Assembly (NCBI RefSeq): GCF_003670115.1
Contig: NZ_QQTY01000002.1
Coordinates: 62,001-126,000 of the forward strand
Reading direction: 5' to 3'
DNA: 64,000 nucleotides
From: Natronorubrum halophilum
GTDB taxonomy: Archaea > Halobacteriota > Halobacteria > Halobacteriales > Natrialbaceae
Shown here piece by piece: positions 3,001-60,218 of this stretch; the first letter of the stretch is position 1, and every line of letters starts with the position of its first letter. The notes below the pieces were generated by a model. It was not told the DNA's origin, searched no databases, and saw only the letters and a list, made by a program, of their open reading frames with translations. The position numbers and the translations under genes were made by a program.

Positions 3001-3023
3001 TGTCGTTACCAATCTCGAAGCCA

Positions 3024-3158
3024 ATGTTCGAATCACCCTATCACGCGGCGCGACACTGCCCTGACTGTTCGACGACGCTGTCGAACGTCCAGGGTGTCGC
3101 CGCCTGTCCGGAGTGTAACTGGGTCGACGCTGACCGACGCTCGATTTCGTCGGTGTGA
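3024..3158 (+). CDS. 44-residue zinc-ribbon microprotein
   Basis: The frame starts at ATG 3024 and ends at TGA 3156-3158. It encodes a 44-residue protein with two Cys pairs, CPDC at residues 12-15 and CPEC at about 28-31, spaced as in a zinc ribbon. Small proteins with two CPxC(G) knuckles are numerous in haloarchaea, and several have been linked to regulation, biofilm or stress phenotypes; a role here is inference. A well placed TTTATTAT box and a palindrome precede it, which supports real expression. It is too short for most ORF-length cut-offs. It lies between the asparaginase and methionine aminopeptidase genes, all on the same strand. Confidence 0.75.
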
Positions 3159-3266
3159 TCGGCGGTCCGTCATCGCCTTCGATCGGATTCTCGAGGGCGG
3201 TCGATCGCCGCCGGGTCGCAGGCCGGAGGCGGAACCTCTTTTTGCCGACCGATACAACCCCGGTGC

Positions 3267-4178
3267 ATGACCGAATCCGAAGTGGACTTGCAGACGGAGC
3301 AGTACGAAAGGCACCGCGAAGCCGGGAAGATTCTCGCGCAGGTGCGCGAAGAGACGGCCGAGCGCGTCGAGGTCGGCGTGAGCCACCTCGAGATCGCCCA
3401 GTACGCGGAGGATCGGATCCGCGAACTCGGCGGGAAACCCGCCTTCCCGGTCAACATCTCGATCGACGAGGAAGCCGCCCACGCGACGCCGTCGATCGGC
3501 GACGAGACGACGTTCGGCGAGGAGATGATCAACCTCGATATCGGCGTCCACATCGACGGCTGGCTCGCCGACACCGCGATCACCGTCGACCTCTCGGGCA
3601 ACCCCGAACTCGCAGAGGCCTCCGAGCAGGCGCTCGAGGCCGCGATCGACGTGACCGAGCCGGGTATCGAGACCGGCGAGATCGGGGCCGAGATCGAGGA
3701 CGTGATCGACGGCTACGGCTACAACCCCGTCGTCAATCTCACCGGGCACGGACTGGGTCACTGGGAACAACACACCAGTCCGAACATTCCGAACCGCGCC
3801 GTCTCGCAGGGAACGACGCTCGAGGTTGGCGACGTCGTGGCTATCGAACCCTTCGCGACCGACGGCGGCGGCAAAGTCACCGAGGGTGCCACCGAGGAAA
3901 TCTTCTCGCTCGAGCGCGAGGGATCCGTTCGAAACCGCCAGGCGCGCGAGGCGCTCGAGCAGATCACCGAGGAGTTTCGGACGCTGCCCTTTGCCACGCG
4001 GTGGCTCGAAACCGACCGCGCGGAGATGGCGCTCCGTCGGCTCAAGCGCAACAACATCGTCCACGGCTATCCGGTGCTTCAGGAGGACGACGGCTTCCTC
4101 GTCAGTCAGAAAGAGCACACGGTGATCATCACCGAAGACGGCTGTGAAGTGACGACGGCGAGCGCGGGTCGCCAGTAA
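3267..4178 (+). CDS. map: Methionine aminopeptidase, type II
   Basis: Removes the initiator methionine from nascent proteins; a cytoplasmic dinuclear metalloenzyme. The pita-bread fold motifs are visible: the AHATPS substrate histidine (about residue 72), metal ligands in NLDIGVHIDGWLADTA (about 89-104), the histidine of GHGLGHWEQH (about 160), EPFATDGGG with its metal-binding glutamate, and a late glutamate in QKEHTVII. The inserted helical domain (about residues 195-265) marks type II. 303 residues matches archaeal MetAP. A run of Ts at 3239-3243, about 24-28 bases before the ATG, suggests a leaderless transcript. Confidence 0.96.
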   Translation: MTESEVDLQTEQYERHREAGKILAQVREETAERVEVGVSHLEIAQYAEDRIRELGGKPAFPVNISIDEEAAHATPSIGDETTFGEEMINLDIGVHIDGWLADTAITVDLSGNPELAEASEQALEAAIDVTEPGIETGEIGAEIEDVIDGYGYNPVVNLTGHGLGHWEQHTSPNIPNRAVSQGTTLEVGDVVAIEPFATDGGGKVTEGATEEIFSLEREGSVRNRQAREALEQITEEFRTLPFATRWLETDRAEMALRRLKRNNIVHGYPVLQEDDGFLVSQKEHTVIITEDGCEVTTASAGRQ

Positions 4179-4309
4179 TCAGCGATCGGCCGCGAGAGCG
4201 TATTCGTCGATTCGCCCCGGACGGCAAGAGAACGGGAGACCAAACGAGCGGGCAACGGGAAGCGGAGTTACTGTACCGATCGTCGCACCGGTCGGATCGC
4301 CGAGCGATC

Positions 4310-4510
4310 TCAAGCGTTGTTCATCCGCTGGCTCGCGCGTTTGCCACACCGCTGGCACTCGGCCACGCGGTAGGGCTCGCGCGAGAACTGCGCGTTCTCC
4401 TTTTTGAGGCTCTCGGTCCGAATCTGGACGGATACCTCGTGAAGCGTTTCGAGGCCGCAGTCATCGCAGTGCTCGGTCATCCCGTTGAAGGAATCGTCAG
4501 TCGTTGCCAT
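4310..4510 (-). CDS. Small zinc-ribbon protein, conserved in haloarchaea
   Basis: A 66-residue protein with CDDCG (about residues 15-19) and CQRCG (about 52-56), a two-knuckle zinc ribbon with a charged middle segment. It resembles a conserved haloarchaeal family of unknown function (I think DUF7835, from memory and unverified). A CTTATATC stretch at 4537-4544 gives a good TATA box 27-34 bases upstream on this strand, supporting the ATG at 4510. It is divergent from the HIT-family gene, with which it shares the 4511-4755 intergenic region. Confidence 0.8.
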   Translation of the reverse strand: MATTDDSFNGMTEHCDDCGLETLHEVSVQIRTESLKKENAQFSREPYRVAECQRCGKRASQRMNNA

Positions 4511-4755
4511 TATCGAGACCTTTCGGTAGTACAGCCTTATATCTCTGCTTCATTTCGAGCGCTGAGTCGAAAAACTACGAGACTGGGTTATCGACGCCGT
4601 ACGACGGGACGAAATCGTCCGATCCCGTTTATCGAGGGGTTTCGAACGTTCGTTTTCGAACGGGTATCGTCACTGAACCCAATCACACCGATCACGGGAC
4701 GGCCGCGTGTTCGCTTTCGGTGGCTACTATAGGCGTTCCTCGAGTGGTATCGGGT

Positions 4756-5295
4756 ATGGAGCAGGTGTTTGCCCCGTGGCGGATCGAGTGGATCAGGCGC
4801 GAGGAGAAAACCCCCGACGTCGACGACTGCGTCTTCTGTGAACTCCCCGAGCAGGAATCCGACAGGGAGAACCTACTCGTCGCGCGCAGCGACCACGCGT
4901 TCGTTCTCCTGAACAACTATCCCTACAACCCGGGCCATACGATGGTGATTCCCTACGCCCACACCGGCGACTACGGCGACCTCACCGACGAACAGTTGCT
5001 CGATCACGCCCGCTTGAAACAGCGCACCTTCGACGCGCTCGAGGTCGCCCTCGAACCGGACGGGTTCAACGCCGGCCTGAACCTCGGTGACGGGGCCGGC
5101 GGCTCCATCGACGACCACCTGCACACCCACGTCGTCCCGCGCTGGGAGGGCGACACCAACTTCATGCCCGTCCTGAGCGACACGTCGGTGATCATCGAAG
5201 CGCTCGAGGAGACCTACGACCACCTGCACGAGGCGTTCGCCGGGCAAGAGGGTGCCGTCGTGCCGGGCGAAGACAGCGCCGTCGTTTTCGAGTGA
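4756..5295 (+). CDS. HIT-family nucleotide hydrolase
   Basis: A histidine-triad protein of 179 residues that probably hydrolyses dinucleoside polyphosphates or adenylylated substrates. The triad HLHTHVVPRW places His121, His123 and His125, with the middle histidine family as nucleophile. The N-terminal CVFC (residues 25-28) together with the nearby histidines matches the zinc-binding HIT/GalT-like subgroup. The core NNYPYNPGHTMVIPY is at about 53-67. The frame is open for 84 codons upstream, but the ATG at 4756 follows an ACTATA box at 4726-4731, and the upstream peptide has no family resemblance. Confidence 0.92.
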   Translation: MEQVFAPWRIEWIRREEKTPDVDDCVFCELPEQESDRENLLVARSDHAFVLLNNYPYNPGHTMVIPYAHTGDYGDLTDEQLLDHARLKQRTFDALEVALEPDGFNAGLNLGDGAGGSIDDHLHTHVVPRWEGDTNFMPVLSDTSVIIEALEETYDHLHEAFAGQEGAVVPGEDSAVVFE

Positions 5296-5383
5296 CCCCA
5301 CTCGAAGCGACAGCCCGAACGTCCAGCCCTCACGCCGGACCGGCCGTACGTTTTTACTGGGTTGTCTCGTGATCTCGAGTAGC

Positions 5384-5788
5384 ATGGAGTACGAGGTCGT
5401 TCACACCGACGACGTCCCGAAGACGGATCTCTCGAAGATCGACGAGGTGCCGCCGGATCTCCAGATCCGGGCGATAGACGAGGTGCTTCCCACCGAGCAC
5501 GTCCAGCTCAAGCTCTGGTACTTCGATCCCGGCGAGGAGATCCGATATCACGCCCACGCCGAACAGGAGGAGCTCTACTACGTCCTCGAGGGCGAGTTCT
5601 CGCTAAAACTCGGTCGATCGGGGGACGAAGCGTACGTCGAGGCCGGTCCGGGCACGTTCTGGATCGCGAAACCAGAAGTCGGACACGGGCATCGAAACGT
5701 CGGCGACGAGCGGGGCGTCGTCCTCGCGATCGGCGCACCCGCGGTCGAGGATCCCGGTCTCGACCCGCACGGCCTCGAGGACGAGTAG
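5384..5788 (+). CDS. Cupin-domain protein
   Basis: A single-domain cupin of 134 residues. The metal-binding motif YHAHAEQEELYYVLEG (about residues 50-65) carries the two histidines and the glutamate. The second motif, GHGHRN (about 98-103), supplies the last histidine. The substrate cannot be predicted. The ATG at 5384 is chosen because a GTTTTTACT box lies about 27-34 bases upstream and homology begins there; the open frame extends further but overlaps the HIT gene end. The tail of the gene abuts a 21-bp tandem repeat. Confidence 0.88.
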   Translation: MEYEVVHTDDVPKTDLSKIDEVPPDLQIRAIDEVLPTEHVQLKLWYFDPGEEIRYHAHAEQEELYYVLEGEFSLKLGRSGDEAYVEAGPGTFWIAKPEVGHGHRNVGDERGVVLAIGAPAVEDPGLDPHGLEDE

Positions 5789-5800
5789 CGATCCCGGCGA

Positions 5801-5864
5801 CGGGTCAAGCGCGGTTCGCGCCGGGGTCAAGCGTGATTCGTGCGGGGTCAGGCGTAGTTCGCGT
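5801..5864 (+). repeat. Three tandem 21-22 bp repeats at a gene 3' end
   Basis: Imperfect units at 5801-5822, 5823-5843 and 5844-5864 share GGGTCAAGCG followed by GGTTCGCG-like sequence. The third unit contains the stop codon of the minus-strand glutaredoxin-like gene (5848-5850), so the array looks like serial duplication of that gene's 3' end into the convergent intergenic gap. Confidence 0.75.
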
Positions 5865-6084
5865 CGAGGTAGTCGAGAATGCGTTCGGACTCCGGCATCG
5901 TGACCCCGCGCTCGTCGTCGACGATGACCGGAACCTGCCGCTGGCCCGAAATTCGCTTTACCTCGTCGCGTTTCGAGTGGAGTCCTTCGGTCCAGACGCT
6001 GTCGTAGTCGACCTCGAGTTCGTCGAGGCGGTCGGCGACGAGTTCGCAGTACGGACAGCCCTCGAGCTGATACAGGGTAACCAT
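5848..6084 (-). CDS. Glutaredoxin-like / GST N-terminal domain thiol protein
   Basis: A 78-residue thioredoxin-fold protein starting MVTLYQLEGCPYC, with a CPYC active site at about residues 10-13. RQVPVIV (cis-proline) is at about 49-55 and the C-terminal ESERILDYL helix follows. It probably performs thiol-disulfide exchange with haloarchaeal low-molecular-weight thiols; the partner is not shown by the sequence. The ATG at 6084 is chosen over an open 50-codon upstream stretch with no fold resemblance. It is divergent from the peroxiredoxin-like gene at 6192, suggesting a redox pair. Confidence 0.88.
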   Translation of the reverse strand: MVTLYQLEGCPYCELVADRLDELEVDYDSVWTEGLHSKRDEVKRISGQRQVPVIVDDERGVTMPESERILDYLDANYA

Positions 6085-6191
6085 ACCCGATCCTTCAGTT
6101 CGCGTCGACAAAAGCGTAGGTGTCGGCGTGCGGTGAAGCGGCGTTCTGCCGCCGAACGGAGGTTTTTGTCGCTTCGCGGGGGAATCGGGGT

Positions 6192-6671
6192 ATGCCACCG
6201 CTCGAGGGAGACACCGTTCCGGCGTTCGAGGCACTGCTGTGCGACGGCGAGACGTTCCGCTCGACGGCGCTCTCAGAGGCGCTCGGGGACCGGGGCGGCG
6301 TCGTCGTCTGTACCGGCTTCGCGTTCAGCGCGATCGCCCAGAACTGGTGGAAACGGTTCGTCCGCGCCGGCTGGGGCGAGTTCGAGGACGTCTCGGTGCT
6401 GGGCGTGAGCCGCGACGGCCCCTACGCGCAAAACGAGTTCCTGCGCTGGCTGGACGAGCCCGCGTTCCGCTTTTTCGCGGACGTCGACGGCGCGGTGAGC
6501 GAGTCGCTCGACCTGCTCGCCGACCGCGATCACATGGCGAACGTCTCGACGCCGTGGCGGTCCGCGTTCGTGGTCGATGCAGACCGGGAGGTCCGGTACG
6601 CGTTCGTCGCGGACGACTGGATCTCGCCGCTTCCTCGAGAAGAAATCGAATCGGCCGTCGCGGAGCTGTGA
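6192..6671 (+). CDS. Peroxiredoxin-like protein lacking the peroxidatic cysteine
   Basis: 159 residues with the AhpC/TSA-type thioredoxin fold: GDTVPAFEALLCDG at the N terminus, then VVVCTGFAFSAIAQNWW, VLGVSRDGPYAQNEF, and a conserved Trp/Arg near TPWRSAFVVD. In active peroxiredoxins the loop after the first core strand reads (F/Y)Tx(V/x)C. Here the corresponding stretch is FSAIA, so alanine replaces the expected peroxidatic cysteine; a cysteine sits earlier, in VVCTG. It may be a non-peroxidase redoxin or a reductant-binding protein. The start at 6192 is chosen for the family N terminus. Confidence 0.8.
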   Translation: MPPLEGDTVPAFEALLCDGETFRSTALSEALGDRGGVVVCTGFAFSAIAQNWWKRFVRAGWGEFEDVSVLGVSRDGPYAQNEFLRWLDEPAFRFFADVDGAVSESLDLLADRDHMANVSTPWRSAFVVDADREVRYAFVADDWISPLPREEIESAVAEL

Positions 6672-6706
6672 GCGACGGTATCCGAACCAGCTCCGTCCGA
6701 ATCGGA

Positions 6707-7960
6707 TCAGACCGGTTTCCCGAACGCGTACATCGTCTCGTGGGCGGTTATCTCGAGGTCGATAAAGTCGCCGGGCTCGAGGCCGTACTCGGTGGCGTTC
6801 TGGACGATGATCTGGCGGTAAGCTGAATCGCGGCACTTAACGGAGTCGGCGGTCCCCTGCTCGACCACGAGCACGTCTTCGCGCGTCTCGCCGACCATGT
6901 CGGCGTAGGCCTCGCTGACGATATCGCGCTTGACCGCGCTCATCTCCTTCGAGCGCACTTTCTTGATCGTCCCGCCGAGGCCCTTCATCTCGGCGGCGTC
7001 GGTACCCGGCCGCTTCGAGAACCGCGTGACGTTGAGCTTCTCCGGTCGGGTTTCCCGCAACAGGGCCATCGACTGGGCGTGATCGTGGTCCGTTTCGGTC
7101 GGGAAGCCGACGATGAAGTCCGTCGAGAGCGTCCAGTAGTCGAGTGCGGAATCGAAGGTCTCGACGACCTCGAGGTACTCCTCGACCTGGTGTTGGCGGC
7201 GCATGTCACCCAGCACGTCGTCGCTCCCGGATTGGACGGGCGCGTGCAGGAAGTCGTAGAGTTCGTCGTACTCGGCGAACACGGCGGCCAACTCCTCGCG
7301 GATGCCGTGGACGCCCTTCGGGTTGGCCATCCCCACGCGGACCCGGAACTCGCCGTCGATCTCGCAGATCTCCTCGAGCAGCCGGTGAAGCTTGCGTTCG
7401 CCCTCGTCCCAGCCGTAGACGCCGGTGTCTTGGCCGGTAATCCGGATCTCCCTCGCGCCGGCGTGGATCAACGCGCGCGCTTTCTCGACGTTCTCCTCGA
7501 TGGAGGGCGACTCGATCTTCCCGGTGGCCTGCTTGGTGATGCAGTACGAGCAGTCGGACATACACCCGCGTGCGATGGGGAGGATACCGACGACGCCGTC
7601 GAGAATCGGCTCCGCGTCGGGAGTCGTCGTCGGACACTCGCCGTTCGTGACGGCTTCGGGAACCTCGTCCCAGTGGAGCACCTGTCCGTCGACGTCGGCC
7701 TTCGCGAACTCTTCGCCCTGCGCGAGGGCCATACAGCCCGTGATGAAGAGGTCGGCCGTCTCGTCGGCGAGCTCTTCGGCCCGGCGGAGCATGTTCCGCT
7801 CGGTCTTCTCGACGACCGTACAGGTGTTGAGAATGGCGACGTCGGCCTCGTCCGCGCCGTCGACCTGGTAGTGGCCCGCATCGCGGAGCCGTCGCTCGAT
7901 CTCGCGGCTCTCCCCGCGATTCGACGTACAGCCGTACGTTTCGATGTGGTACCGGGCCAT
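6707..7960 (-). CDS. tRNA methylthiotransferase (MiaB/MtaB-type radical SAM)
   Basis: Adds a methylthio group to a modified adenosine at tRNA position 37, most likely t6A to ms2t6A as in the archaeal/eukaryotic e-MtaB group. The 417-residue protein has the UPF0004 domain with cluster cysteines C11 (YGCTSNRGE), C47 (NTCTV) and C76 (TGCMA). The radical-SAM CxxxCxxC is C133-C137-C140 (GCMSDCSYC). A C-terminal TRAM domain follows (about 355-417, VLVVEQGTADSVKCRDS...). The start at 7960 directly precedes the conserved MARYHIETYGC; upstream in-frame codons are unlike the family. Confidence 0.94.
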   Translation of the reverse strand: MARYHIETYGCTSNRGESREIERRLRDAGHYQVDGADEADVAILNTCTVVEKTERNMLRRAEELADETADLFITGCMALAQGEEFAKADVDGQVLHWDEVPEAVTNGECPTTTPDAEPILDGVVGILPIARGCMSDCSYCITKQATGKIESPSIEENVEKARALIHAGAREIRITGQDTGVYGWDEGERKLHRLLEEICEIDGEFRVRVGMANPKGVHGIREELAAVFAEYDELYDFLHAPVQSGSDDVLGDMRRQHQVEEYLEVVETFDSALDYWTLSTDFIVGFPTETDHDHAQSMALLRETRPEKLNVTRFSKRPGTDAAEMKGLGGTIKKVRSKEMSAVKRDIVSEAYADMVGETREDVLVVEQGTADSVKCRDSAYRQIIVQNATEYGLEPGDFIDLEITAHETMYAFGKPV

Positions 7961-8188
7961 TCGCTTGGCAAAGTATGGGACCTCGGAGGGCAAAAGCGCG
8001 ACGAATCCCGTCGGTCCGTGTCGAGCGTGCACCTCCAACGCGGGCCGGCTGGTCCGTGGAATTCCGTGTAACCGGTTACAACCGCCCCGGAACCCCGCGC
8101 TCGAGAGAACTACTAGGAGCCTCGTCTTCGTCGGTGTACGCGTAACGATTTCCGGGGAGAACCGACTCGGTCGAACCGTCGCCGACAG

Positions 8189-8509
8189 CTACTCTTCGCC
8201 GTCAGACAGCGCCTCGAGCGCCTCGCGACCGACGTAGAGGTTCCGGCGGCCCGTGGGCTCCTGGGTGATCAGCACGCCGGCCGAAAAGTCGGGGGTCCCG
8301 TTATCGTCGTAGATCGCTTCGGGATTCGTTCCGATGCGGACCGACTCGCGAACGGAAAACATCGCCTCCCGGACCGCGTCTGCCCGGTCGTCCGCCGCGG
8401 CGATGTTCCGGTACTCGAGGTCCTCGTCGCGGGCCGCCAGGCGCTCGAGGACGGTCTCGACGTGGTCTGGGGCGGTGTCGCCGTTGTATATGTAGCTCCG
8501 GACGCGCAT
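8189..8509 (-). CDS. Conserved haloarchaeal protein, unknown function
   Basis: A 106-residue acidic protein without membrane segments, starting MRVRSYIYNGD and ending ALSDGEE. The middle (about 36-65) looks alpha/beta (YRNIAAADDRADAVREAMFSVRESVRIG). The C-terminal half has GVLITQEPTGRRNLYVGREALEAL. No catalytic motif is recognised. The frame is open far upstream (to 9679), but that part is antisense to the membrane protein at 8584-9609, so the ATG at 8509 is the sensible start. Co-directional with the permease upstream, with a 74-base gap. Confidence 0.7.
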   Translation of the reverse strand: MRVRSYIYNGDTAPDHVETVLERLAARDEDLEYRNIAAADDRADAVREAMFSVRESVRIGTNPEAIYDDNGTPDFSAGVLITQEPTGRRNLYVGREALEALSDGEE

Positions 8510-8583
8510 GGGTGCGCTTCGGGTCGAACGATCTTGAACGCTGTCGGTTACGGCGCGGCGAACTCGCTTCCGGGTCGCTCCGC

Positions 8584-9609
8584 TCACGTCTCGGTCGTTC
8601 CGGACTCGCCCGCGAGGCGGTCGTAGTTCTCGTCGACGACGCTGATCGTCGTGAGCAGCGCGCCGAGGATCACGGGTCCGAAGAACAGTCCCATCACGCC
8701 GAAGGCGTAGACGCCCCCGAGGACGCCGAGGATGATCACGGCGGGGTTGAGTTCGGCGTAGCGATCGACGACGATCGGTCGCAGATAGTCGTCCGAGACG
8801 CCGACGATGACGGTGCTGTAGACCGCCAGCGCGACGGCGAGAACCGGTTCGCCGGTCAACAGCAGGTAGCCGACGGCCGGCCCCCAGACCAGGAACGCAC
8901 CGATCAGCGGGATGAGCGCGAGGATCACCATGACGAACGTCCAGAACGCGGCGTTTGGGACGCCGGTTGCGAACAGCCCCAGGCCGGCGATGACGCCCTG
9001 TATGATCGCGATCAGAACGTGACCGGCCAGGACCGCCCACATGACCTCCTCGAGTTCGCCGTAGAGGTCGTGCTGTACGTCGCTGGGAAGCGGCGTCATG
9101 TCGTGAATCCAGGCCATCAGGTCGTCGCCGTCTTTGAGCAAGTAGTAGACGAGGAAGAGCGCCAGTCCGAGCCCGATCAGGGCGTGGGTCAGCGCGCCGA
9201 ACCACTCGGTCGATCGCTCGAGGACGACCGTCCCGATCTGCTGGGCCGACCCCGTCACCGACGACGCGATATCGACGGTCACGCCGGTTTCGGCTTCGAT
9301 CAGGTCCTCGATCGCGCTCAACTGGAGCGACTCGGCGTCGGCGTTCTGGAGCATCTCCACGGCGTCCCCGGCGAACAGGCCGATGACGAGCACGAACGGC
9401 ACGATGAACGCGACGATCGCGAGTAAGACCAGCGCAAACGCCGCGACCGTCGGCGACGTCCGCCTCTCGAGTCGCCACTGGAGGGGGTAGAGCACGAACG
9501 CGATGAGCACGGCTCCGAGGACGTACTGCAAGAACGGTGTGACGAGTTGCCACGAGAGATACGCCATGGCGACGACGAGGGCCAGAAGATATCCCTTGCT
9601 TAAGTTCAC
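8584..9609 (-). CDS. AI-2E family transporter (PerM-like membrane protein)
   Basis: A 341-residue polytopic membrane protein of the AI-2E/PerM exporter family. It has two N-terminal helix pairs, an extracytoplasmic/helical segment (about 90-150), then PLIGAFLVWGPAVGYLL and a final block containing VVDRYAELNPAVIILGVLGG and GPVILGALLT, typical of the family. Some members export small molecules or act as Na+/H+ antiporters; the substrate here is unknown. The start codon is GTG at 9609. A GATAAAG box at 9633-9639 on this strand lies 24-30 bases upstream and supports it. Confidence 0.9.
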   Translation of the reverse strand: MNLSKGYLLALVVAMAYLSWQLVTPFLQYVLGAVLIAFVLYPLQWRLERRTSPTVAAFALVLLAIVAFIVPFVLVIGLFAGDAVEMLQNADAESLQLSAIEDLIEAETGVTVDIASSVTGSAQQIGTVVLERSTEWFGALTHALIGLGLALFLVYYLLKDGDDLMAWIHDMTPLPSDVQHDLYGELEEVMWAVLAGHVLIAIIQGVIAGLGLFATGVPNAAFWTFVMVILALIPLIGAFLVWGPAVGYLLLTGEPVLAVALAVYSTVIVGVSDDYLRPIVVDRYAELNPAVIILGVLGGVYAFGVMGLFFGPVILGALLTTISVVDENYDRLAGESGTTET

Positions 9610-9723
9610 ACGTTCGGTTCCACGACGTATCAGATAAAGTTGGTCCAGACATATCCAGCGTCGGGACTGTCCCAGTCACTCGTCACACGGCTTCAAGGGT
9701 CTGGTTCGCCAACGTCGGAACGA

Positions 9724-10458
9724 ATGTCGACCCAGCTCGATCCCCTCTCCCTCTCGGCCGATTTGCTGTACGCGGTCAAAACCGAGGGCGATACCGACTG
9801 GCTACGAGACCACCTCGCGACGCTCGAACGCTCACACCTCCACCGAACGCTCTCCAGTCGCGAGGGGAAACTCGCGTTCTGGCTCAACTGTTACAACGCC
9901 TACGCCCAGTTGCTTCTGGAGGCGGAGCCGTCGTCGCTCGAGGGGAGCCGCCGTCAGCGCTGGAAGTTCGTCACCCGCGATCGGATTCCGGTGGGCGGCG
10001 TCTGGTTGAGTCTCAACGATATCGAACACGGACTGCTCCGGCGTTCGAAGCACCCGTGGGGCTTCGGCTACCTGCCTCGAGTGCTGCCCTCGGCGTTCGA
10101 ACGGGAGTTTCGACTGCCCGAGTGCGATCCTCGGATCCACTTTGCGATCAGTCACGGTGCCGAGCACTGTCCGCCGGTGACGGTCTACTCGCCGGCCGAC
10201 GTCGACGCGGAACTCGACATCGCCGTCGAGTGGTTTCTCGAGGAGAGCGTCAGCTACGATCCGGACGCCGGCGTCGCCACGGTTCCGCGACTGTTCCGTC
10301 GCTACCGCGGTGATTTCGGCGGCAAACGCGGCGTCATCGCGTTTCTCCGGGAGTACAACGCCGTTCCAGAGGGAGTGAGGCCGACCCTCGAGTACGAATC
10401 CACGATCGGCGATCCGGAGTTCGAGTTCGACTTCGAACTGGACGGCTTCCCGCCGTAA
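9724..10458 (+). CDS. DUF547-domain protein
   Basis: A 244-residue protein matching the DUF547 pattern: KLAFWLNCYNAYAQ (about 57-70), IPVGGVWLSLNDIEHGLLR (about 89-107), DPRIHFAISHGAEHCPPVTVYSPADVDAELD (about 138-168) and FGGKRGVIAFL near the C terminus. The conserved Cys/His/Asn positions suggest a papain-like or transglutaminase-like fold, but the activity of the family is not established. No signal peptide is seen. The ATG at 9724 is preferred; the frame is open 28 codons upstream. Divergent from the PerM gene. Confidence 0.85.
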   Translation: MSTQLDPLSLSADLLYAVKTEGDTDWLRDHLATLERSHLHRTLSSREGKLAFWLNCYNAYAQLLLEAEPSSLEGSRRQRWKFVTRDRIPVGGVWLSLNDIEHGLLRRSKHPWGFGYLPRVLPSAFEREFRLPECDPRIHFAISHGAEHCPPVTVYSPADVDAELDIAVEWFLEESVSYDPDAGVATVPRLFRRYRGDFGGKRGVIAFLREYNAVPEGVRPTLEYESTIGDPEFEFDFELDGFPP

Positions 10459-10470
10459 TCCGGCCGTCTC

Positions 10471-11025
10471 TCAGTTCTCGCGTCCCTCGATACTCGCGGC
10501 GGGTGCGCTTTGCATCACGCTTCGCACGGCGCGCTCGGCGTTCGACCGCGAGGTGTAGCCCTCGCCGCTGTCGGCGATGATGTTTCCGTTCCAGTGGACG
10601 AGTCGCCAGCGCCACTCGTCGGCGCGGTCTTCGTAGACCTCGAACCGACTGGTTCGCTCGTCGGGTTGTGCCCGTTGCCGTTTCCCGTCCGTTTCCGAAT
10701 CCACGTCCGACGCCGATTCATCGCTCTCGACACCGGATTCCTCGAGTTCGCTGTCCGCGAGCTGGATGCTCGAGCCCTCCGAGTCGTCCCACTCGAGTTC
10801 GATTTCCAGTTCGGCGACGGGCGTTTCGTCGTCGTCGCCGTCGCGTTCGACCTCGAATTCCGCGGCCACTCGCGGCGGGACCGTGACCGTCGCGGTCCGC
10901 TCCCCGTCGTCTATGCGCAACGGGCGATCCGCCGCCAGCGCGGCCGCGAACTCCCGGAAGACGGCGGCGAGTTCGTCGCGGTCGTACGCGCGCTCGAGTT
11001 CGAATTCGATCGATGACTCGGCCAT
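10471..11025 (-). CDS. Amphi-Trp / DUF1508 (YegP-like) two-domain protein
   Basis: A 184-residue protein in three parts. Residues 1-85 resemble the amphi-Trp domain (ELERAYDRDELAAVFREFAAAL, strand-rich core ending ELEIELEWDD). Residues 86-125 are an acidic linker. Residues about 126-184 form a YegP/DUF1508-type repeat (FEVYEDRADEWRWRLVHWNGNIIADSGEGYTSRSNAERAV). This architecture recurs in haloarchaea; the function is unknown, and DUF1508 domains are often small stress-related proteins. Its start overlaps nothing if the divergent HNH-like gene begins at 11130. Confidence 0.82.
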   Translation of the reverse strand: MAESSIEFELERAYDRDELAAVFREFAAALAADRPLRIDDGERTATVTVPPRVAAEFEVERDGDDDETPVAELEIELEWDDSEGSSIQLADSELEESGVESDESASDVDSETDGKRQRAQPDERTSRFEVYEDRADEWRWRLVHWNGNIIADSGEGYTSRSNAERAVRSVMQSAPAASIEGREN

Positions 11026-11129
11026 ACGCTGGCTACAACGTCCGACAGGTAATACTGTCGGCCGGCGCTCCCGGTCCGTCGGTTCCGAGAGCCGGTGCGC
11101 TTTTGTCGTCGCGCTGTCTTCGCTCGCCC

Positions 11130-11942
11130 GTGACTTCCCGCGATCGGCAGGACGACCGGCGAGCCGTCTTCGAGCGAGACGATCACGCGTGCCGACACTG
11201 TGAGGGCGCCGGTGACGCGGCCGATCCGGCGGCGCTCCGAACGGTTCCCGTGGGCGGCGTCCCGCTCGAGGGAACGGTCCACGAGAGCGCGCTCGTGACC
11301 GTCTGTGCGGACTGCTTCGCGACGCTCCGAACGCCGTCCGACTCGGCCGAACCGGAAATATCGGCTTCGCGCCGCGACCTGTTCACCCTCGTTCGGGAGA
11401 CGACCCGCGTTCAGGGCGGCGTCATCTCCGACGTCGCGTCGTTCGCCTCGCTCGCAACGTCGGTGCCGACGACGCTCGCCGACGCTGACGACGAGGCGTC
11501 GTTCGACGGCGAAACTACGGCGGACTACCGTCGCGCCCGTCGTGACGTTCTGCTCGCGATCGATCTCGTCGACGCCCGCCTCGAGCGCCTCGCCGCGGTC
11601 GACGAGACGGCGTTCGACGCCGACGTTCGCTCGTCGCTCGAGGCGTTCTCGGTGTCGGCGGCCGACCTGCAGTCGACGCTTCGAACCGTCGTCGACCGGG
11701 CCGAGACGGTCCCCGCCGGACTCGAGCGCTGTCACGGCTGTTTCGACGCGCTCGAGTCCGGTCGCTGTTCGACCTGCGGACTCGAGGCCCGGTCGACGGC
11801 CGACTGGCGGCGCGACGACGGCGGTCTCGCGTTCGAGCGACTCTTCTCGGCGGTCAACGACGAATTGCAACGCGCCTCGGCGACGACGGAGACGCTGACC
11901 GATCGGGCGACGGCGCTCGCGACGCAGCTTTCGGAGTCCTGA
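11130..11942 (+). CDS. HNH-like protein with degenerate active site
   Basis: A 270-residue protein, probably from GTG 11130 (MTSRDRQDDRRAVFERD). Residues 10-70 follow the HNH endonuclease layout: RRAVFERDDHACRHC...VPVGG...LVTVCADCFATL. Both zinc-knuckle Cys pairs (CRHC, CADC) are kept, but the central His-His of active HNH nucleases (usually HHI) is replaced by LRTVPVGG. The long helical C-terminal region holds a second knuckle pair, CHGC...CSTCG (about 200-215). It is probably a zinc-binding DNA- or RNA-associated protein without nuclease activity. The frame is open back to 11013. Confidence 0.65.
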   Translation: MTSRDRQDDRRAVFERDDHACRHCEGAGDAADPAALRTVPVGGVPLEGTVHESALVTVCADCFATLRTPSDSAEPEISASRRDLFTLVRETTRVQGGVISDVASFASLATSVPTTLADADDEASFDGETTADYRRARRDVLLAIDLVDARLERLAAVDETAFDADVRSSLEAFSVSAADLQSTLRTVVDRAETVPAGLERCHGCFDALESGRCSTCGLEARSTADWRRDDGGLAFERLFSAVNDELQRASATTETLTDRATALATQLSES

Positions 11943-12131
11943 ACCGGCATCTTCGCTCCGTCGAGAGCGTCTCGCTCGATTGGTGTAGGCCCGTTGAACT
12001 CCTCGGAGCACGCGGGATCACTGTAGTAGTTCGGCCGGATGAAGGCCTTTCTCGAGCTACAGTTACCGATAAGATGACGCGCGGTGTGTAACCGCTACCG
12101 CCAGAGCGGTTCCACAACGGCGGTCGTGACG

Positions 12132-12695
12132 ATGAAGACTCAATACTACACGGCGACGAGCATCGACGGGTATCTCGCCGACGAGGACGGCTCGCTCGAC
12201 TGGCTCTTCCAGTTCGGCGACATCGATGGCGTGGATGACGACTACCAGCAGTTCGTGGATCAGGTCGGTTCCCTGGCCATGGGCTCGACGACCTACGAGT
12301 GGCTCCTCGAGCACGAAAATCTACTGGAGGAGCCGGAAAAATGGCCGTACGAGGTGCCGGCGTGGGTGTTTAGCAGTCGAGAGTTACCGGCGGTCGACGG
12401 TGCGAACGTTCGCTTCGTGCAGGGGGACGTCGCACCCGTCCACGCGGATATGGTGGCGGCCGCAGACGGGAAGAACGTCTGGCTCGTCGGCGGCGGTGAC
12501 CTCGTCGGGCAGTTCCACGATCACGGTCTCCTCGACGAAATCGTTCTCAGCGTCGCTCCCGTCACGCTCGCTTCGGGCGCGCCGCTGTTACCGCGCAGGA
12601 TCACCACCCCGCCCCTGAAACTGGCTACCGTGCAAAAACACGGCGACGTTTTCGCGGTTCTAACCTACGAGGTGCCACGATCGAGCGAGGACTAA
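12132..12695 (+). CDS. RibD C-terminal / dihydrofolate reductase-family protein
   Basis: A 187-residue NAD(P)H-dependent reductase-like protein of the RibD C-terminal family. Core motifs: YYTATSIDGYLADEDGSLDWLFQFG at the N terminus, LAMGSTTYEWLL (about 49-60), then KNVWLVGGGDLVGQFHDHGLLDEIVLSVAPVTLASGAPLLP (about 113-153), which contains the nucleotide-binding GGG and the family's LLDE. Stand-alone members are common in actinobacteria and haloarchaea and their substrate is unknown; this is not DHFR proper. The ATG at 12132 fits the family start. Confidence 0.87.
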   Translation: MKTQYYTATSIDGYLADEDGSLDWLFQFGDIDGVDDDYQQFVDQVGSLAMGSTTYEWLLEHENLLEEPEKWPYEVPAWVFSSRELPAVDGANVRFVQGDVAPVHADMVAAADGKNVWLVGGGDLVGQFHDHGLLDEIVLSVAPVTLASGAPLLPRRITTPPLKLATVQKHGDVFAVLTYEVPRSSED

Positions 12696-12794
12696 TCGGG
12701 AGAGTTCTTCTTCCGCCGACTACTGACGAACGGGGAGTGGATACCGCTCGATCCGCGTCGTTTCTTCCGCGGATCGCGACCGCTATCGGTACCG

Positions 12795-13571
12795 TTACAG
12801 GTTCGTGGCGGCCTCGAGCGCGATATCGATCGCGCGGCCGACGTTGTTCTTCGCCTTGTCCGGCAGTTCGTCGTCCTCCGTGTCGGTCCCCTTCTGAGTG
12901 CCCTCGACGAGGTTGCCGTCGACGGTACAGATCGCGCCGGCGCGCAGGCCCTTCCGGCGGGCCAGCGAGAAGACCGCGGCGGCTTCCATCTCGACCGAGA
13001 GGAGGCCGGCGGCTTCCCAGTCGTCGACGGCGGCGTCGGACTCGGCGTAGTAGGCGTCGTCGGAGGCGATCGGTCCGACGTGGACCCGGTTCGCGGCGTC
13101 GCCGCTCTCCCCATCCGCGGCCCGAGCGGCCGCGCGCTCCTCGTTCGCCTCTGCGGAGTCGACGAGCGCCGATAGCACGTCGTAGTCCGGGACGGCGGGG
13201 TACTCGACGGCCTCGTACCGTTTCGAGGTCCCCTCGTTTTTCGCTGCCCCGGTCGCGACGATCATGTCGCCGATCTCGATGTCGGACTGGAGCGCACCGG
13301 TCGTCCCCACGCGGATGAACGTCTCGACGCCGACGTTCGCCAGTTCCTCGACGGCGATGGCGGCCGACGGGCAGCCGATCCCCGTCGAACAGATCGTCAG
13401 CTCCTGGCCCTCGTAGGTGGCGTTTACGACCTTGTACTCTCGGTTTTCGGCGATCGTCTCGGATTCCTCGCAGTGGCTGGCGATGCGGTCGACGCGACCG
13501 GGGTCGCCCGGAATGAGTACTCGATCGGTCACGTCACCGTCGTCGACCAGCAGGTGTGGCTGCGTTGCCAT
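12795..13571 (-). CDS. Nucleoside phosphorylase (uridine/guanosine phosphorylase family)
   Basis: Phosphorolysis of a nucleoside to base and ribose 1-phosphate; NP-I family, cytoplasmic. Of 258 residues: LIPGDPGRVDRIA (phosphate loop, about 19-31), EYKVVNATYEG, STGIGCPSAAI, IRVGTTGALQ (about 86-95) and LLSVEMEAAAVFSLA (ribose-binding Glu-Met-Glu, about 190-204). These resemble uridine phosphorylase sequences, but a haloarchaeal relative is known to act on guanosine, so substrate is open. A TTTTTT run at 13595-13601 on this strand lies 24-30 bases upstream of the ATG. First enzyme of the putative pentose cluster. Confidence 0.92.
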   Translation of the reverse strand: MATQPHLLVDDGDVTDRVLIPGDPGRVDRIASHCEESETIAENREYKVVNATYEGQELTICSTGIGCPSAAIAVEELANVGVETFIRVGTTGALQSDIEIGDMIVATGAAKNEGTSKRYEAVEYPAVPDYDVLSALVDSAEANEERAAARAADGESGDAANRVHVGPIASDDAYYAESDAAVDDWEAAGLLSVEMEAAAVFSLARRKGLRAGAICTVDGNLVEGTQKGTDTEDDELPDKAKNNVGRAIDIALEAATNL

Positions 13572-46778: not shown

Positions 46779-47123
46779 ATGATACTGGTACGCGGTCGTG
46801 CCGGCGGAACCGAACTCACCGGCACGCTGTACGAACGGGGCGAACGAGCGCCGTCGTTCCGCGGCGCTCCGGACGAAGACGCCGCGTACGTCTGGGTCTG
46901 TGACGAGTTCTACGAGGTCGACAGCGGCGGTTCGACGCAGCTCGTCGACGGCCGCGAAGTAAATCTCGCGTTCGAGTCGCCCATGCCGCGCGGATTCGAC
47001 ACCCGCGAACAGGCCCTCGACGGGGCGAGAGAACACGTCCGGACGCAGTTCGCTCGAATCGGCATCGACCCCACGGCCGTGGCCCTCGAGGTCGAAAAGG
47101 ACGCGTCCGAGACGGGCGATTAG
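46779..47123 (+). CDS. Conserved haloarchaeal protein (DUF7113-like)
   Basis: A 114-residue acidic protein: MILVRGRAGGTELTGTLYERGERAPSFRGAPDEDAAYVWVCDEFYEVDSGGSTQLVDGREVNLAFESPMPRGFDTREQALDGAREHVRTQFARIGI. Beta-strand rich with a terminal helix; no signal or membrane segment. Family identity is from memory and unverified. Its stop overlaps the convergent cohesin-protein stop at 47120 by four bases. Confidence 0.75.
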   Translation: MILVRGRAGGTELTGTLYERGERAPSFRGAPDEDAAYVWVCDEFYEVDSGGSTQLVDGREVNLAFESPMPRGFDTREQALDGAREHVRTQFARIGIDPTAVALEVEKDASETGD

Positions 47124-48058
47124 TCCCGACTTCGAGTTCGACGCGCCCCTCGAGCGACGACGAATGTACCACCGATGGCGAGCAGCGCCGCGAGGCCGCC
47201 CGTAAACCCGGGCACCGAGTCGTCGGTGGATTCGCTATCGGTGACGGCTTCGTCGTCCGTTTCCGTCGTCTCGATTTCGTCCGGATCCGGATTGTAGAAC
47301 GACGAGACGTCCTCGCCGCCGCCGTCGATCTCGACGGTGACGCCCTGCTCGTGGATCGGCAACGGCCATTCGCGGACGAGTTGCACGCTGCTCTCGTCGA
47401 AGGAGATAACCGCGTCCGCGGGGTCGGCGTCTTCGGCGACCGCGACGGTCAACGTGGCGAGTTCGCCGGTACCCGTCGCCCCGTTGGCGGCGGGCGCTCG
47501 GTACTGGTTGAGGACCGCCGTCCCCTCCTCGTGCGTGAGTCCCGTCTCGACGTGGACGTCGGTCTCTTCCCCCTGCTCGAGCCACGGCCCCGCCTCGATA
47601 TCCGTGATCTCGAGGTAGTCGGGATGGTACTGGGCGACGAGATCGACGGCTTCGACGCCCTCGCCGCCGTGTCCGCCGTCGCTGACCATCTCCACCTCGA
47701 TCGTGAACTCCTCGCCGGGGTCGGCCTCGACGGAGTGCGGCGACGGCGTGATGACCGCAACCTGATCGCCGGCGAGGGCCGTCCCGACGGCGATTCCGAG
47801 CGCCGAGACGACGAGTAGGGCGACGGCCGTCGCGACGAGCAGTAGCTGGCACCGCTCGCGATCGTCCGTCCGCTGGGTAACTGTCTCATGTGAGTCGGTG
47901 AACTGCTGTCCGGCGAACTCGTTTGCGTTCGTTTCAGTACCCGTGAACTTAGGCGGTGTCCTCGGTATCAGTGCGTGCAGCGGTCTCGCCGCTCTCGTCC
48001 GCGTCGTCGTGTCGCACTTGCGCGTGTGACGGTCTCGATGGCCACTACTACCGTTCAC
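47120..48058 (-). CDS. PGF-CTERM-anchored protein with a cohesin domain
   Basis: 312 residues from GTG 48058 (start uncertain). A hydrophobic segment LLLVATAVALLVVSALGIAVGTALAG (about 71-96) serves as signal or anchor. The cohesin domain spans about 105-245: SPHSVEADPGEEFTIEVEMVSDG, VDLVAQYHPDYLEITDIEAGPW, NGATGTGELATLTVAV, AVISFDESSVQLVREWPLP. The C terminus has the sorting signature SVPGFTGGLAALLAIGGTFVV with basic tail, the substrate of archaeosortase. In the cell envelope; likely binds dockerins. Confidence 0.85.
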   Translation of the reverse strand: MNGSSGHRDRHTRKCDTTTRTRAARPLHALIPRTPPKFTGTETNANEFAGQQFTDSHETVTQRTDDRERCQLLLVATAVALLVVSALGIAVGTALAGDQVAVITPSPHSVEADPGEEFTIEVEMVSDGGHGGEGVEAVDLVAQYHPDYLEITDIEAGPWLEQGEETDVHVETGLTHEEGTAVLNQYRAPAANGATGTGELATLTVAVAEDADPADAVISFDESSVQLVREWPLPIHEQGVTVEIDGGGEDVSSFYNPDPDEIETTETDDEAVTDSESTDDSVPGFTGGLAALLAIGGTFVVARGARRTRSRD

Positions 48059-55925: not shown

Positions 55926-56130
55926 TCAGCGTCGTACCCGCCCATAACGACGGCGATGTCCGAAAAGATAGGGCCTGATGGACTTCGTCGCGGAGCGCTG
56001 GCGATTCACCTGCGACTCGAACGCGCCCTCGAACCCGTGCGACCCGGTATCGGTACGAACCTCTCGTGAGCGCGCAATAGCCATCATATCAACGTTCAAT
56101 ACCGTTTCGAACTCGAGTGGGTCCACGGAG

Positions 56131-56538
56131 ATGTCCACGTCCGACCCCACCCCCGAAACCACCGACCGAGTCGTCGAGGACTACGTCTTCGGCGTTCGCA
56201 TCGTCAGCGAGACCGACGGGCGCTATCGATTCGAGGCACCCGAACACACCGATATCGCGTTCGACGGACTCGAGGACGCCCGTCTGTACGCAGACGTCTA
56301 CTTCGACGTCAACGGTTTCGTCGAGGAGGGCACCGGCGAGCGCGGCGTTCCCCCGGAGGTCGTACAGGCCGGTAAGGACACCCTCGCGGCGTACCTCGTG
56401 ACGATGCCCTGGGCCGACGTCAACTGGGTCGCCTCCTTTTACGGAACGACGCCGCAGGAAATCGAACGCTACTGCACGTGGGTCTGCGACCGCGCCGCGG
56501 AGATCCGAACCGAAGCGACGAACCGGGACCTCGAGTAG
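56131..56538 (+). CDS. Conserved haloarchaeal protein, unknown function
   Basis: A 135-residue soluble acidic protein: TDRVVEDYVFGVRIVSETDGRYRFEAPEHTDIAFDGLEDARLYADVYFDVNGFVEEGTGERGVPPEVVQAGKDTLAAYLVTMPWADVNWVASFYGTTPQEIERYCTWVCDRAAEIR. Beta-strand N terminus, helical C terminus. No motif or family known. ATG 56131 is preferred over an open stretch upstream (from 55978). Confidence 0.75.
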   Translation: MSTSDPTPETTDRVVEDYVFGVRIVSETDGRYRFEAPEHTDIAFDGLEDARLYADVYFDVNGFVEEGTGERGVPPEVVQAGKDTLAAYLVTMPWADVNWVASFYGTTPQEIERYCTWVCDRAAEIRTEATNRDLE

Positions 56539-56864: not shown

Positions 56865-59486
56865 ATGGTCGAATTTACCAGGCGGAAGCTGATGGCGAGC
56901 TCGGCGGCGGCCGCCATCGGCATCGGTGCGATCGGTACCGTGACTGGACAGGAAGACGGCGACACGCCCGGAGCACCGCGGATCAACGGCGATATCAAGC
57001 GCCTCGCGACCACGGCCCACGGCGCCGAGGTCACCGGTCCGTTCGTGTTCGAGAACGGCGAGGTCCTGTTCAGCCTCCAGCACCCGAGTCGAGACAACCC
57101 CGCGCCGTACGACACGGCGGCGGTCGGCGTCCTCGCGGGTCTCCAGTTCACGTTCAACGGGAGAAGCGACGAGTTCGACGAACTCGAGGCCCCGCGATCG
57201 AACGCGGCACAAGAGCGCGTCCAGGTCGCCGGCGGCGAGTACGATATCCTCGTCCAGGAGGGCGACGCGATCAACGGCGGCGACGAGCGGTGGGGCCACC
57301 CCCAGACGCCCGACGGCACCGATCTCGGCGAGTTCGTCGGCAGCCGGTACGGCGACGTCGGCTACAACCCCGACATGAACTTCTTCGTCTCGACCGACGA
57401 GGAGGGACTCGAGGGCTACCTCTTTACGAACAACGAGACGAGTCCGGGCTGTATCAGCCGAACGCCGATCAGCCGCGGCGAGGACGGCTGGGAGGCCGAC
57501 CACGAGCACGCGATGGAACTCGAGAATCTCGAGCGCTTCCGCGAGATCGGCGGCACCCGAATCAACTGTTACGGGGACCTGAGTCCGTGGGAAACGCCGA
57601 TGTCCTCGGAAGAGGATTACAGCCATCCGCGCGTGTCGGGGACGGCGACGGTCAACGACATCGTCGAGGCCGGTAGCGGCGTCGGCCTGCGCGGCGCGGC
57701 GGCGTTCTGGAACCGGCCGAACCCGACCGAGATCGCGGGTGCGCTCGACGAACTGTTCGACGATAGCTGGAATCCGCAGGGGACGTGGGCGCTGGGCGGC
57801 GTCGAGATGCTGGCCTACTACCTCGGCGCCGACCCCGTCGATCAGGACGGCGATACGAATACGACGGACCCGATCGGCGACGTCTACCCCAACCCCTACC
57901 GGTACGGTCGCATCGTCGAGGTCACGGATCCGACGGCCGCGGAACCGACCCCCGTCAAGCACCACGTCATGGGTCGGGCCGCCTTCGAGTGTCCCGAGTT
58001 CCTGCCCGACGAGCGGACCGTCTATCTCGCCTCCGACGGGGCGAACAAGGGCCTCTACAAATTCGTCGCCGAGGACCCGATCCCGAGTTACGACGACCGG
58101 ATGAACGTCCGCGGGACGCTGTACGCCGTCCACGTGACCAACGACGAGGCTGCGACAAATCGCCCGCCGGCCGAGGTCGACCTCGAGATCGAGTGGATCG
58201 AACTCGGCACCGCGAGCAACGCCGAGGTCGAGTCCTGGATCGCCGACTACGACGACGTCACGCAGGTCGACTACCTCGAGACCCACGCCGAGACCGACTG
58301 GGAGGAGGACCTCGAGACTGCGCTCGCCGAGGCCGACGAGACGGTCGCGGTCGAGGGCAATCGGAACTACATCACTGACGAGGACGTTCTCGAATGGGCC
58401 CGACAGTACGAGGAACGCGGCCCCGACGGCGTCGACGAGGACCTGCGCCGCGTCCCCTTCCTCGAGACCCGCGCGGCCGCCAAGGAGATCGGCGCCACCA
58501 TCGAGTTCCGCAAGGCCGAGGGAATCGACTCGCTCGACGACGCCGAGCCCGGCGACTTCCTCTACATAGGGATTTCGGAGCTCAACGACGGTATGAGCGA
58601 CGACGAGGGCGATATTCGGATGGACCGCGTCGACGGCGGCGTCGTCTACCGGGCCGAACTCGAGGAGGATTACAACGTCTCGACGCTCGAACCCGCGGTC
58701 GTCGGCCCCGACGCAACTGACGCCGAGTCGACCCTCGACGTGGCACCCATCAACGTCGACAACGTCATGGTGCTCGATGACGGCCGCGTCCTCCTCTGTG
58801 AGGACAAGGGGAGCTTCGGCCGCTCGTATCCAAACGACGCCCTGTGGGTCTACGAGCCGCCAGCGGTCCTCAGCGTCGACTCGGTGGCGATCAGTCACGA
58901 GTCGACTGGCGAGGCCGACCTGACGCTCTCGTCGGTACCCGACGGCCTCGCGGGCGGTCGCGTCACCGTCTCGGTCGACCAGACCGACGTCGCCGAGATC
59001 GTCGACGCCAGCTATCACGACGCGCTCGAACTCACCGCCGGCCCGTCGATCAGCGCCGACGGATCGTCGGTCGAGTTCCGCTTTGCAGATCTCGAGAACG
59101 AAATCGAGTCCGGCGGACGAAACGTCACGGTGGCGACGCTCGAACTCGAGGGCGTCGGCACGGGGACGGCCGATATCACGGTCGACGTGCACGAACTGGA
59201 CGACGATTCGGGGATGCCCATCGAACCGCAAGCCCGCCCCGGCGTCGTCGTCACCGGTCCGCCGGCGATCGGCGGCGGACCGGGCGGCAGGGCTCCGACC
59301 GATCCCGACGGCGACGGTCGGTTCGAGGACGTCAACGGCAACGGCCGACTCGACTACGACGACGTGGTCGTCCTGTTCGAGCACATCGAGGCGGATTCCG
59401 TCCAGCTCAACGACAAGGCCTTCGACTTCAACGAGAACGGACGCATCGACTACGACGACGCCGTCGCGCTGTACGACGAACTGTAA
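56865..59486 (+). CDS. Secreted PhoX-like phosphatase with cohesin-like and dockerin modules
   Basis: 873 residues. A Tat signal (TRRKLMASSAAAAIGIGAIG) leads into a DUF839/PhoX-type beta-propeller-like region (about 60-650): EDGWEADHEHAMELEN, GTRINCYGDLSPWETPMSSEEDYSHPR, HHVMGRAAFECPEF, ASDGANKGLYKFVAED and NVMVLDDGRVLLCEDKG. A cohesin-like beta domain follows (about 665-795, VPDGLAGGRVTVSVDQTDVAEIVDAS...), then a dockerin-type pair of calcium loops (about 818-830 DVNGNGRLDYDD and about 853-865 DFNENGRIDYDD). The protein probably scavenges phosphate and docks to an anchored partner. Start at 56865. Confidence 0.87.
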   Translation: MVEFTRRKLMASSAAAAIGIGAIGTVTGQEDGDTPGAPRINGDIKRLATTAHGAEVTGPFVFENGEVLFSLQHPSRDNPAPYDTAAVGVLAGLQFTFNGRSDEFDELEAPRSNAAQERVQVAGGEYDILVQEGDAINGGDERWGHPQTPDGTDLGEFVGSRYGDVGYNPDMNFFVSTDEEGLEGYLFTNNETSPGCISRTPISRGEDGWEADHEHAMELENLERFREIGGTRINCYGDLSPWETPMSSEEDYSHPRVSGTATVNDIVEAGSGVGLRGAAAFWNRPNPTEIAGALDELFDDSWNPQGTWALGGVEMLAYYLGADPVDQDGDTNTTDPIGDVYPNPYRYGRIVEVTDPTAAEPTPVKHHVMGRAAFECPEFLPDERTVYLASDGANKGLYKFVAEDPIPSYDDRMNVRGTLYAVHVTNDEAATNRPPAEVDLEIEWIELGTASNAEVESWIADYDDVTQVDYLETHAETDWEEDLETALAEADETVAVEGNRNYITDEDVLEWARQYEERGPDGVDEDLRRVPFLETRAAAKEIGATIEFRKAEGIDSLDDAEPGDFLYIGISELNDGMSDDEGDIRMDRVDGGVVYRAELEEDYNVSTLEPAVVGPDATDAESTLDVAPINVDNVMVLDDGRVLLCEDKGSFGRSYPNDALWVYEPPAVLSVDSVAISHESTGEADLTLSSVPDGLAGGRVTVSVDQTDVAEIVDASYHDALELTAGPSISADGSSVEFRFADLENEIESGGRNVTVATLELEGVGTGTADITVDVHELDDDSGMPIEPQARPGVVVTGPPAIGGGPGGRAPTDPDGDGRFEDVNGNGRLDYDDVVVLFEHIEADSVQLNDKAFDFNENGRIDYDDAVALYDEL

Positions 59487-59489
59487 CCG

Positions 59490-60218
59490 ATGGACTGTCA
59501 CGACGTCGATCCACCGGCCTCCGCCGTTCGACGAGCGAGTCACTCACTTGGCCGCTGGCGAGCGATTCGAGTGCTCGTCGTCGCCGTCGTACTCGTCGCA
59601 CTCGGGGCGATAGCGATCGGTTCGGTCGCCGGAAGCGAGGGGAGCAACGCCTCGAGCGCGACCGACGCCGAACTCGTCGTCTCGGACGCGACTGTCGATC
59701 CTACCGGCACGGAAACGCACCGTCTCGCGTTGACCGACGCGCCGGAGGGGCTGGCGGGATTCGAGGTCACGCTCGCGCTGGAGTCCGGCGACGTCGCGAC
59801 GGTGACGAACGCCAGTTACCCGGACCACTTCGGGCTGACGACCGATCCCGCGGTGAGCGCGGACGGTCGGACCGTCACCGTCGAAGCGGCCGACCTCGGC
59901 GACGAGATTACGTCCGGAGCGACGGACGTCACGCTGGCGGAGATCGACGTCGCCGGCGTCGAGCCCGGCGAGACGGAACTGCAGGTCACTGATCTACAGA
60001 TCGACGCCGACGGCGGGAGCGCCATCGAACCGTCGCTCGAGGCGGGGACGGTGACCGTCGGCGACGGGGCGGCCGGATCATCGTCCCAGAACGACGACGG
60101 CACGGAAACTGGAACGGAGTCGGAAGCCGACTCGGACTCGGTCCCCGGCTTCGCGGCCGGAGTCACGATCGCAGCGCTCGCGACGGTCGCGACCGTCCTG
60201 TTCGTACGGCGCACCTGA
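59490..60218 (+). CDS. PGF-CTERM-anchored protein with cohesin-like domain
   Basis: 242 residues, starting three bases after the PhoX-like stop, so probably translationally coupled. A hydrophobic segment (IRVLVVAVVLVALGAIAIGSVAG, about 26-48) precedes a cohesin-like beta domain (about 60-190) that clearly matches the corresponding module in PhoX: EGLAGFEVTLAL vs DGLAGGRVTVSV, VTNASYPD vs IVDASYHD, and SAIEPSLEAGTV vs MPIEPQARPGVV. The C terminus is SVPGFAAGVTIAALATVATVLFVRRT, a PGF-CTERM sorting signal. Located in the cell surface; presumed partner of the dockerin. Confidence 0.85.
   Translation: MDCHDVDPPASAVRRASHSLGRWRAIRVLVVAVVLVALGAIAIGSVAGSEGSNASSATDAELVVSDATVDPTGTETHRLALTDAPEGLAGFEVTLALESGDVATVTNASYPDHFGLTTDPAVSADGRTVTVEAADLGDEITSGATDVTLAEIDVAGVEPGETELQVTDLQIDADGGSAIEPSLEAGTVTVGDGAAGSSSQNDDGTETGTESEADSDSVPGFAAGVTIAALATVATVLFVRRT

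Follow-up and report, generated by a model that had tools for sequence, protein, structure and literature searches.

The Natronorubrum halophilum DNA analysed here, a 64,000-nucleotide stretch of contig NZ_QQTY01000002.1 (the window), carries at positions 56865–60218 of its forward strand two adjacent genes. The first encodes a predicted phosphatase of the PhoX family that ends in a cohesin module and a type-I dockerin; the second encodes a single-cohesin protein with a predicted C-terminal membrane anchor (referred to below as the anchor). We propose that the two form a cellulosome-like surface docking system in which the PhoX dockerin would bind the anchor cohesin, so that the phosphatase is tethered to the membrane (probability about 0.74). 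Cohesins and dockerins have until now been an oddity in archaea, without a clear role. In culturable haloarchaea, the locus brings together a definite enzyme and a definite anchor, a gene pair that is conserved, and a natural instance of joint absence, and makes the role of archaeal cohesins a question for one knockout and one pull-down. It would also supply a salt-stable docking pair.

The PhoX gene (56865–59486, + strand) encodes 873 residues. Its N-terminal export signal (56865–56951) contains the twin-arginine motif TRRKLM, with the RR pair invariant across 7 orthologues, and is read as a twin-arginine translocation (Tat) signal; export is probably by the Tat route. The catalytic domain (residues about 30–664; 56952–58856) identifies the protein by sequence as a member of the PhoX alkaline phosphatase family. 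Pfam PhoX (PF05787) matches the 873-residue protein with 84.5 bits (cut-off 24, E 1.2e-23), and a profile search of solved structures matches the domain to P. fluorescens PhoX (3zwu/4amf, E 4e-9), where the NC..G.SPWET / NC..GKTPWGT motif lines up in the profile alignment. Behind the catalytic domain lie the cohesin module (residues 665–800; 58857–59264) and the dockerin (residues 810–873; 59292–59483).

The PhoX cohesin and that of the anchor (residues 60–191; 59667–60062) align without gaps over about 135 residues. Their Smith-Waterman score of 233 compares with 44 ± 8 for shuffled sequences (Z 23), and profile-profile comparison with hhalign gives E 4.6e-24. Pfam PF00963 (cohesin) matches neither protein, a genome-wide PF00963 search did not return the locus, and a sequence profile of the anchor retrieved no solved cohesin from the sequences of the Protein Data Bank. 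Fold and homology are what identify the modules as cohesins. AlphaFold 2 (AF2) models the anchor module with high per-residue confidence (pLDDT mostly 90–97), and the model superposes in VIA on the C. cellulolyticum cohesin 1g1k with Z 15.8 (root-mean-square deviation 2.1 over 130 residues) and on the A. fulgidus cohesin 2xdh with Z 15.3. The first 49 VIA matches are cohesins or cohesin-like modules, nearly all of the matches listed are cohesins, and the fold matches include 3ul4, 4dh2 and 2zf9; the best Foldseek hit, likewise to cohesins, has E 4.5e-9. For the PhoX module the top VIA match is again 2xdh (Z 11.6), and Foldseek matches cohesins with E 1.3e-8. Sequence identity in the fold alignments with the A. 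fulgidus cohesin is only 11–14%. By these models both modules are cohesin folds, nine-stranded beta sandwiches that the Pfam sequence model overlooks; the missing PF00963 signature speaks against a strict PF00963 label and not against the fold. The anchor profile also aligns with PF00963-positive haloarchaeal proteins at 94% probability, which is weak support since the alignment consists in part of the shared PGF-CTERM end. Weak matches to unrelated families (M18 peptidase, lethal factor, GAPDH) were put down to chance.

The PhoX tail is by its sequence a type-I dockerin, with two EF-hand-like Ca2+ loops of 12 residues and a helix behind each. The first repeat (59328–59387) begins with loop DVNGNGRLDYDD at residue 822 and the second (59424–59483) with loop DFNENGRIDYDD at residue 854; 11 of the 20 positions are identical between the two repeats, and both have Tyr-Asp (YD) at positions 10/11. 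Dockerin_1 scores 20.5 bits on the whole protein, 22.5 on the tail alone and 26.1 in a genome-wide search, against a cut-off of 22.9, and matches 19 of 20 orthologous PhoX tails. Alignment with the structurally solved CelS dockerin is weak (E 0.08). Fold searches with the PhoX tail listed no dockerin entries, the dockerin part being of low confidence in that AF2 model. A sequence-only reading of this DNA had described the locus in much these terms: its coordinates, the 873-residue reading frame, the neighbour three bases downstream, the two quoted calcium loops behind a cohesin-like module and the resemblance of the two modules all held up, and its placement of the modules in the cohesin and dockerin families stands for the folds and the dockerin tail but not for a PF00963 sequence match.

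The anchor gene (59490–60218, +; 242 residues) lies in the reading frame of PhoX, separated from its last sense codon only by the stop TAA and one spacer codon, CCG (59484–59489). This immediate in-frame start implies that the two genes are co-transcribed, and their translation is probably coupled. The predicted protein has an N-terminal hydrophobic signal peptide region (59490–59633), poorly conserved in sequence across orthologues and hydrophobic in every case, then the cohesin module, an acidic linker rich in Ser, Asp, Thr and Glu (60063–60140) and a PGF-CTERM-like sorting signal made up of VPGF, a hydrophobic stretch and RR (60141–60215). Exact PGF is present in 14 of 16 aligned orthologues, and the same genome encodes archaeosortase A (ArtA, 335 bits). 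It is established for S-layer proteins that PGF is processed and a lipid attached (PMC8875312, with its references).

Support for a functional pair comes from the distribution of tail and anchor. The anchor or its module has relatives in 55 of 125 Natrialbaceae genomes and in 18 of 29 genera, and in all 30 loci read the anchor starts between −4 and +28 nucleotides from the PhoX stop. A locus table for the 125 genomes, merging the results for the anchor, for the PhoX tail and for the catalytic domain of PhoX as queries, gave an anchor beside 43 of 44 tail-bearing PhoX genes and beside none of 20 tail-less ones (Fisher p 1e-15, kinship of the genomes ignored). The congener G101 has PhoX at the same site between the same flanking genes, but there the protein ends shortly after the catalytic domain and the anchor gene is absent. 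Outside Natrialbaceae, PhoX and anchor matches are adjacent in 23 genomes, of which several loci were read. The pairing that the sequence-only reading expected in relatives is thus borne out; a search of viral contigs returned no relatives of the anchor.

Residues that determine partner choice point the same way. In each repeat of a dockerin, positions 10 and 11 determine specificity, and symmetry between the repeats accompanies dual-mode binding (PMC8063739). The PhoX dockerins conserve the two Ca2+ loops and the distance between them, as well as the pseudo-twofold recognition positions: among 35 distinct sequences, 34 have Tyr at position 10 of both repeats and 24, including the present one, have exactly YD/YD. 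At the same positions the dockerins of haloarchaeal glycoside-hydrolase clusters have AT/TT, TS/TS, FN/FN or H[AGET]/[FY][SA], and those of the SNase type have F[ED]/FD. In a tree of 95 cohesins all 30 PhoX anchors form one clade and all 28 PhoX cohesins its sister clade, which argues that the two are not interchangeable copies; most glycoside-hydrolase anchors group with scaffoldin cohesins from clusters of the same type, and one anchor (L059) is a long branch of uncertain placement. Separate cognate systems would look like this.

An experimental precedent for the arrangement comes from A. fulgidus. PMC9705933, citing Voronov-Goldman 2011, describes the dockerin of AF2375 as binding the cohesin of AF2376, the product of the adjacent open reading frame, strongly and specifically. 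As in the PhoX/anchor pair, a terminal dockerin (AF2375 residues 432–506) is encoded next to a cohesin protein (AF2376 residues 29–162), whose fold is the 2xdh structure matched above. In contrast to AF2375/AF2376, the dockerin protein here is a recognisable phosphatase, the C-terminus of its neighbour is PGF-CTERM-like, and many haloarchaea conserve the pair. The A. fulgidus binding was tested biochemically. That this similarly arranged pair binds is one of the grounds for favouring tethering, and with the tested precedent we regard the locus as a variant of a known arrangement and not a new kind. Its interest lies in an enzyme that can be named, in a co-occurrence without blur and in the scaffoldin relatives described below; an adjacent cohesin-dockerin pair was already known from A. 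fulgidus. Bacterial cellulosome anchors (C. thermocellum OlpA/OlpC, R. flavefaciens ScaE), for which the fold matches are 3ul4, 4dh2 and 2zf9, likewise combine a cohesin with a surface anchor for a dockerin-bearing protein, but here the anchor is PGF-CTERM or a plain C-terminal hydrophobic stretch, the enzyme is non-cellulolytic, and the PhoX locus has neither a multi-cohesin scaffoldin nor dockerin-bearing polysaccharide hydrolases. The cohesin/dockerin proteins of anaerobic methanotrophic archaea (ANME) resemble the present ones in being archaeal with non-cellulolytic dockerin proteins; those dockerin proteins differ from PhoX in being ABC substrate-binding and S-layer proteins, and no defined adjacent enzyme/anchor pair has been reported for them.

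In the mechanism that we propose, PhoX would be exported, probably via Tat, and after export of both proteins its Ca2+-loaded dockerin would bind the cohesin that the neighbouring gene encodes. The C-terminus of the anchor, probably after processing by archaeosortase A, would fix it in the membrane. The phosphatase would then stay at the cell surface, where the phosphate that it frees could be captured locally. The cohesin of PhoX itself would be a second socket, which may take another PhoX or a different dockerin protein.

Several observations weigh against this proposal. The PGF-CTERM model TIGR04126 scores 17.7 bits on the anchor, below its cut-off of 24.5, and matches only 4 of 16 orthologues at E 0.01; moreover, several anchors outside Natrialbaceae end in a plain C-terminal hydrophobic stretch without PGF. 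The sorting signal named by the sequence-only reading is therefore backed by the conserved PGF and by ArtA but not by the family model, and the conserved feature, as judged from the orthologues, is a C-terminal membrane anchor. The PhoX catalytic domain is divergent. A fused dockerin-anchor chain modelled with AF2, in which the TAA stop was read as Gly as a device to put both proteins in one chain, reached a predicted template modelling score (pTM) of 0.56; the anchor cohesin was excellent, but the dockerin had pLDDT of about 45–62 and the model is uninformative on docking. Tail-bearing PhoX genes without an adjacent anchor also exist (G023, G348, G161), and the cohesin of PhoX itself could be the true partner of the dockerin.

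That last point extends to polymerisation, which the sequence-only reading had also raised: an explanation in which the dockerin chiefly binds the cohesin of another PhoX, giving chains or oligomers that the anchor cohesin merely caps or seeds. The genomes just named would fit it, as would the cohesin adjoining the dockerin in every intact PhoX tail examined and the several cases of two tandem PhoX genes with one common anchor (L070, L071, L048). We nevertheless consider it unlikely: it leaves unexplained the near-constant presence of the anchor and its absence together with the tail, and the anchor and PhoX cohesins fall into separate clades.

The dockerin might instead bind other cohesins of the cell, with its adjacency to 59490–60218 incidental. 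The genome does encode three further PF00963 cohesin proteins over the cut-off with PGF-like tails, two of them elsewhere and one in the window (47120–48058, − strand), and such anchored single-cohesin proteins would be candidate partners. No dockerin gene was seen beside 47120–48058, however, and the tail is almost never found without an anchor next to it, which makes this reading very improbable. We give still less credence to a loss of docking altogether, with calcium loops that only stabilise the C-terminus or cohesins that serve as homotypic adhesion domains. The A. fulgidus cohesin reportedly forms dimers and tetramers in solution, as homotypic domains might, but conserved recognition positions and Ca2+ loops, and a tail and anchor that are present or absent together, fit a lost interaction poorly. 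Tethering of PhoX by the anchor, as the sequence-only reading had suggested, remains the reading that we prefer.

The window also contains, at the position just mentioned (47120–48058, − strand), the separate single-cohesin protein, which scores 33.9 bits with PF00963 and has a PGF-CTERM-like end.

Related cohesin-dockerin systems were found elsewhere in haloarchaea, and the enzyme/anchor plan that the subtilase and glycoside-hydrolase versions share with PhoX counts in favour of tethering. In the same genome, a second enzyme/anchor pair (G000:C4, locus L121, 1806–6313) consists of a subtilase with a cohesin-like module and a C-terminal dockerin (Dockerin_1 36.8 bits), followed by a gene for a 291-residue PGF-CTERM protein. 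A third class of the same arrangement is seen in L060, L061 and L062, where genes for SNase/DUF4350 proteins of about 1150–1500 residues, ending cohesin-dockerin, are each followed within a few nucleotides by a single-cohesin anchor. Halovivax sp. KZCA124 (L057, G008:C1:1620000–1634000) has a cellulosome-like cluster at 882–13040 in which a homologous single-cohesin PGF-CTERM anchor is flanked on one side by a GH5 protein carrying ten cohesin modules in tandem and on the other by enzymes with dockerins, of the GH5 and FN3/CBM5_12 types. Like clusters occur in L058, L059, L063–L067 and L069, the smaller ones in other genomes comprising a GH5-dockerin protein, a GH5 protein that has a PKD-like end and one cohesin or two, and an anchor; the single-cohesin PGF-CTERM anchor is present in most, not all, of the haloarchaeal GH5 clusters.

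Large multi-cohesin scaffoldins have been thought lacking in archaea, with scaffoldin-like proteins of up to five cohesins in ANME (PMC9012536). The haloarchaeal maximum of ten cohesins in one protein compares with those five, and the gene sequences suggest that large scaffolds, said there to be missing or small, do exist in haloarchaea. A haloarchaeal cellulose study mentions neither cohesin nor dockerin (PMC10267330), and a literature search, with subscription papers mostly outside its reach, found no description of the haloarchaeal pair or scaffoldins. Taken with some reserve, a general, order-wide docking scheme seems the somewhat more probable state of affairs in haloarchaea: each class (PhoX, subtilase, SNase/DUF4350, glycoside-hydrolase) would match its own dockerin specificity to its own membrane-anchored cohesin, and some lineages would have extended the scheme to true archaeal cellulosomes with multi-cohesin scaffoldins.

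Two minor observations concern PhoX and its surroundings. Near the PhoX N-terminus (56979–57100), GAEVTGPFVFENGEVLFSLQHP is similar to a motif from the C-terminal part of P. fluorescens PhoX (GCEVTG..LFVGIQHPG). The similarity, of only 5 bits, hints at circular permutation of the propeller, for which testing the N-terminal fragment against Pfam gave no confirmation. Upstream, 55978–56538 (+) encodes an uncharacterised 186-residue protein without a Pfam match. Its homologues (46–79% identity) adjoin PhoX in several haloarchaeal families, and a similar protein is encoded beside the tail-less PhoX of G101; a role as a PhoX accessory factor is possible.

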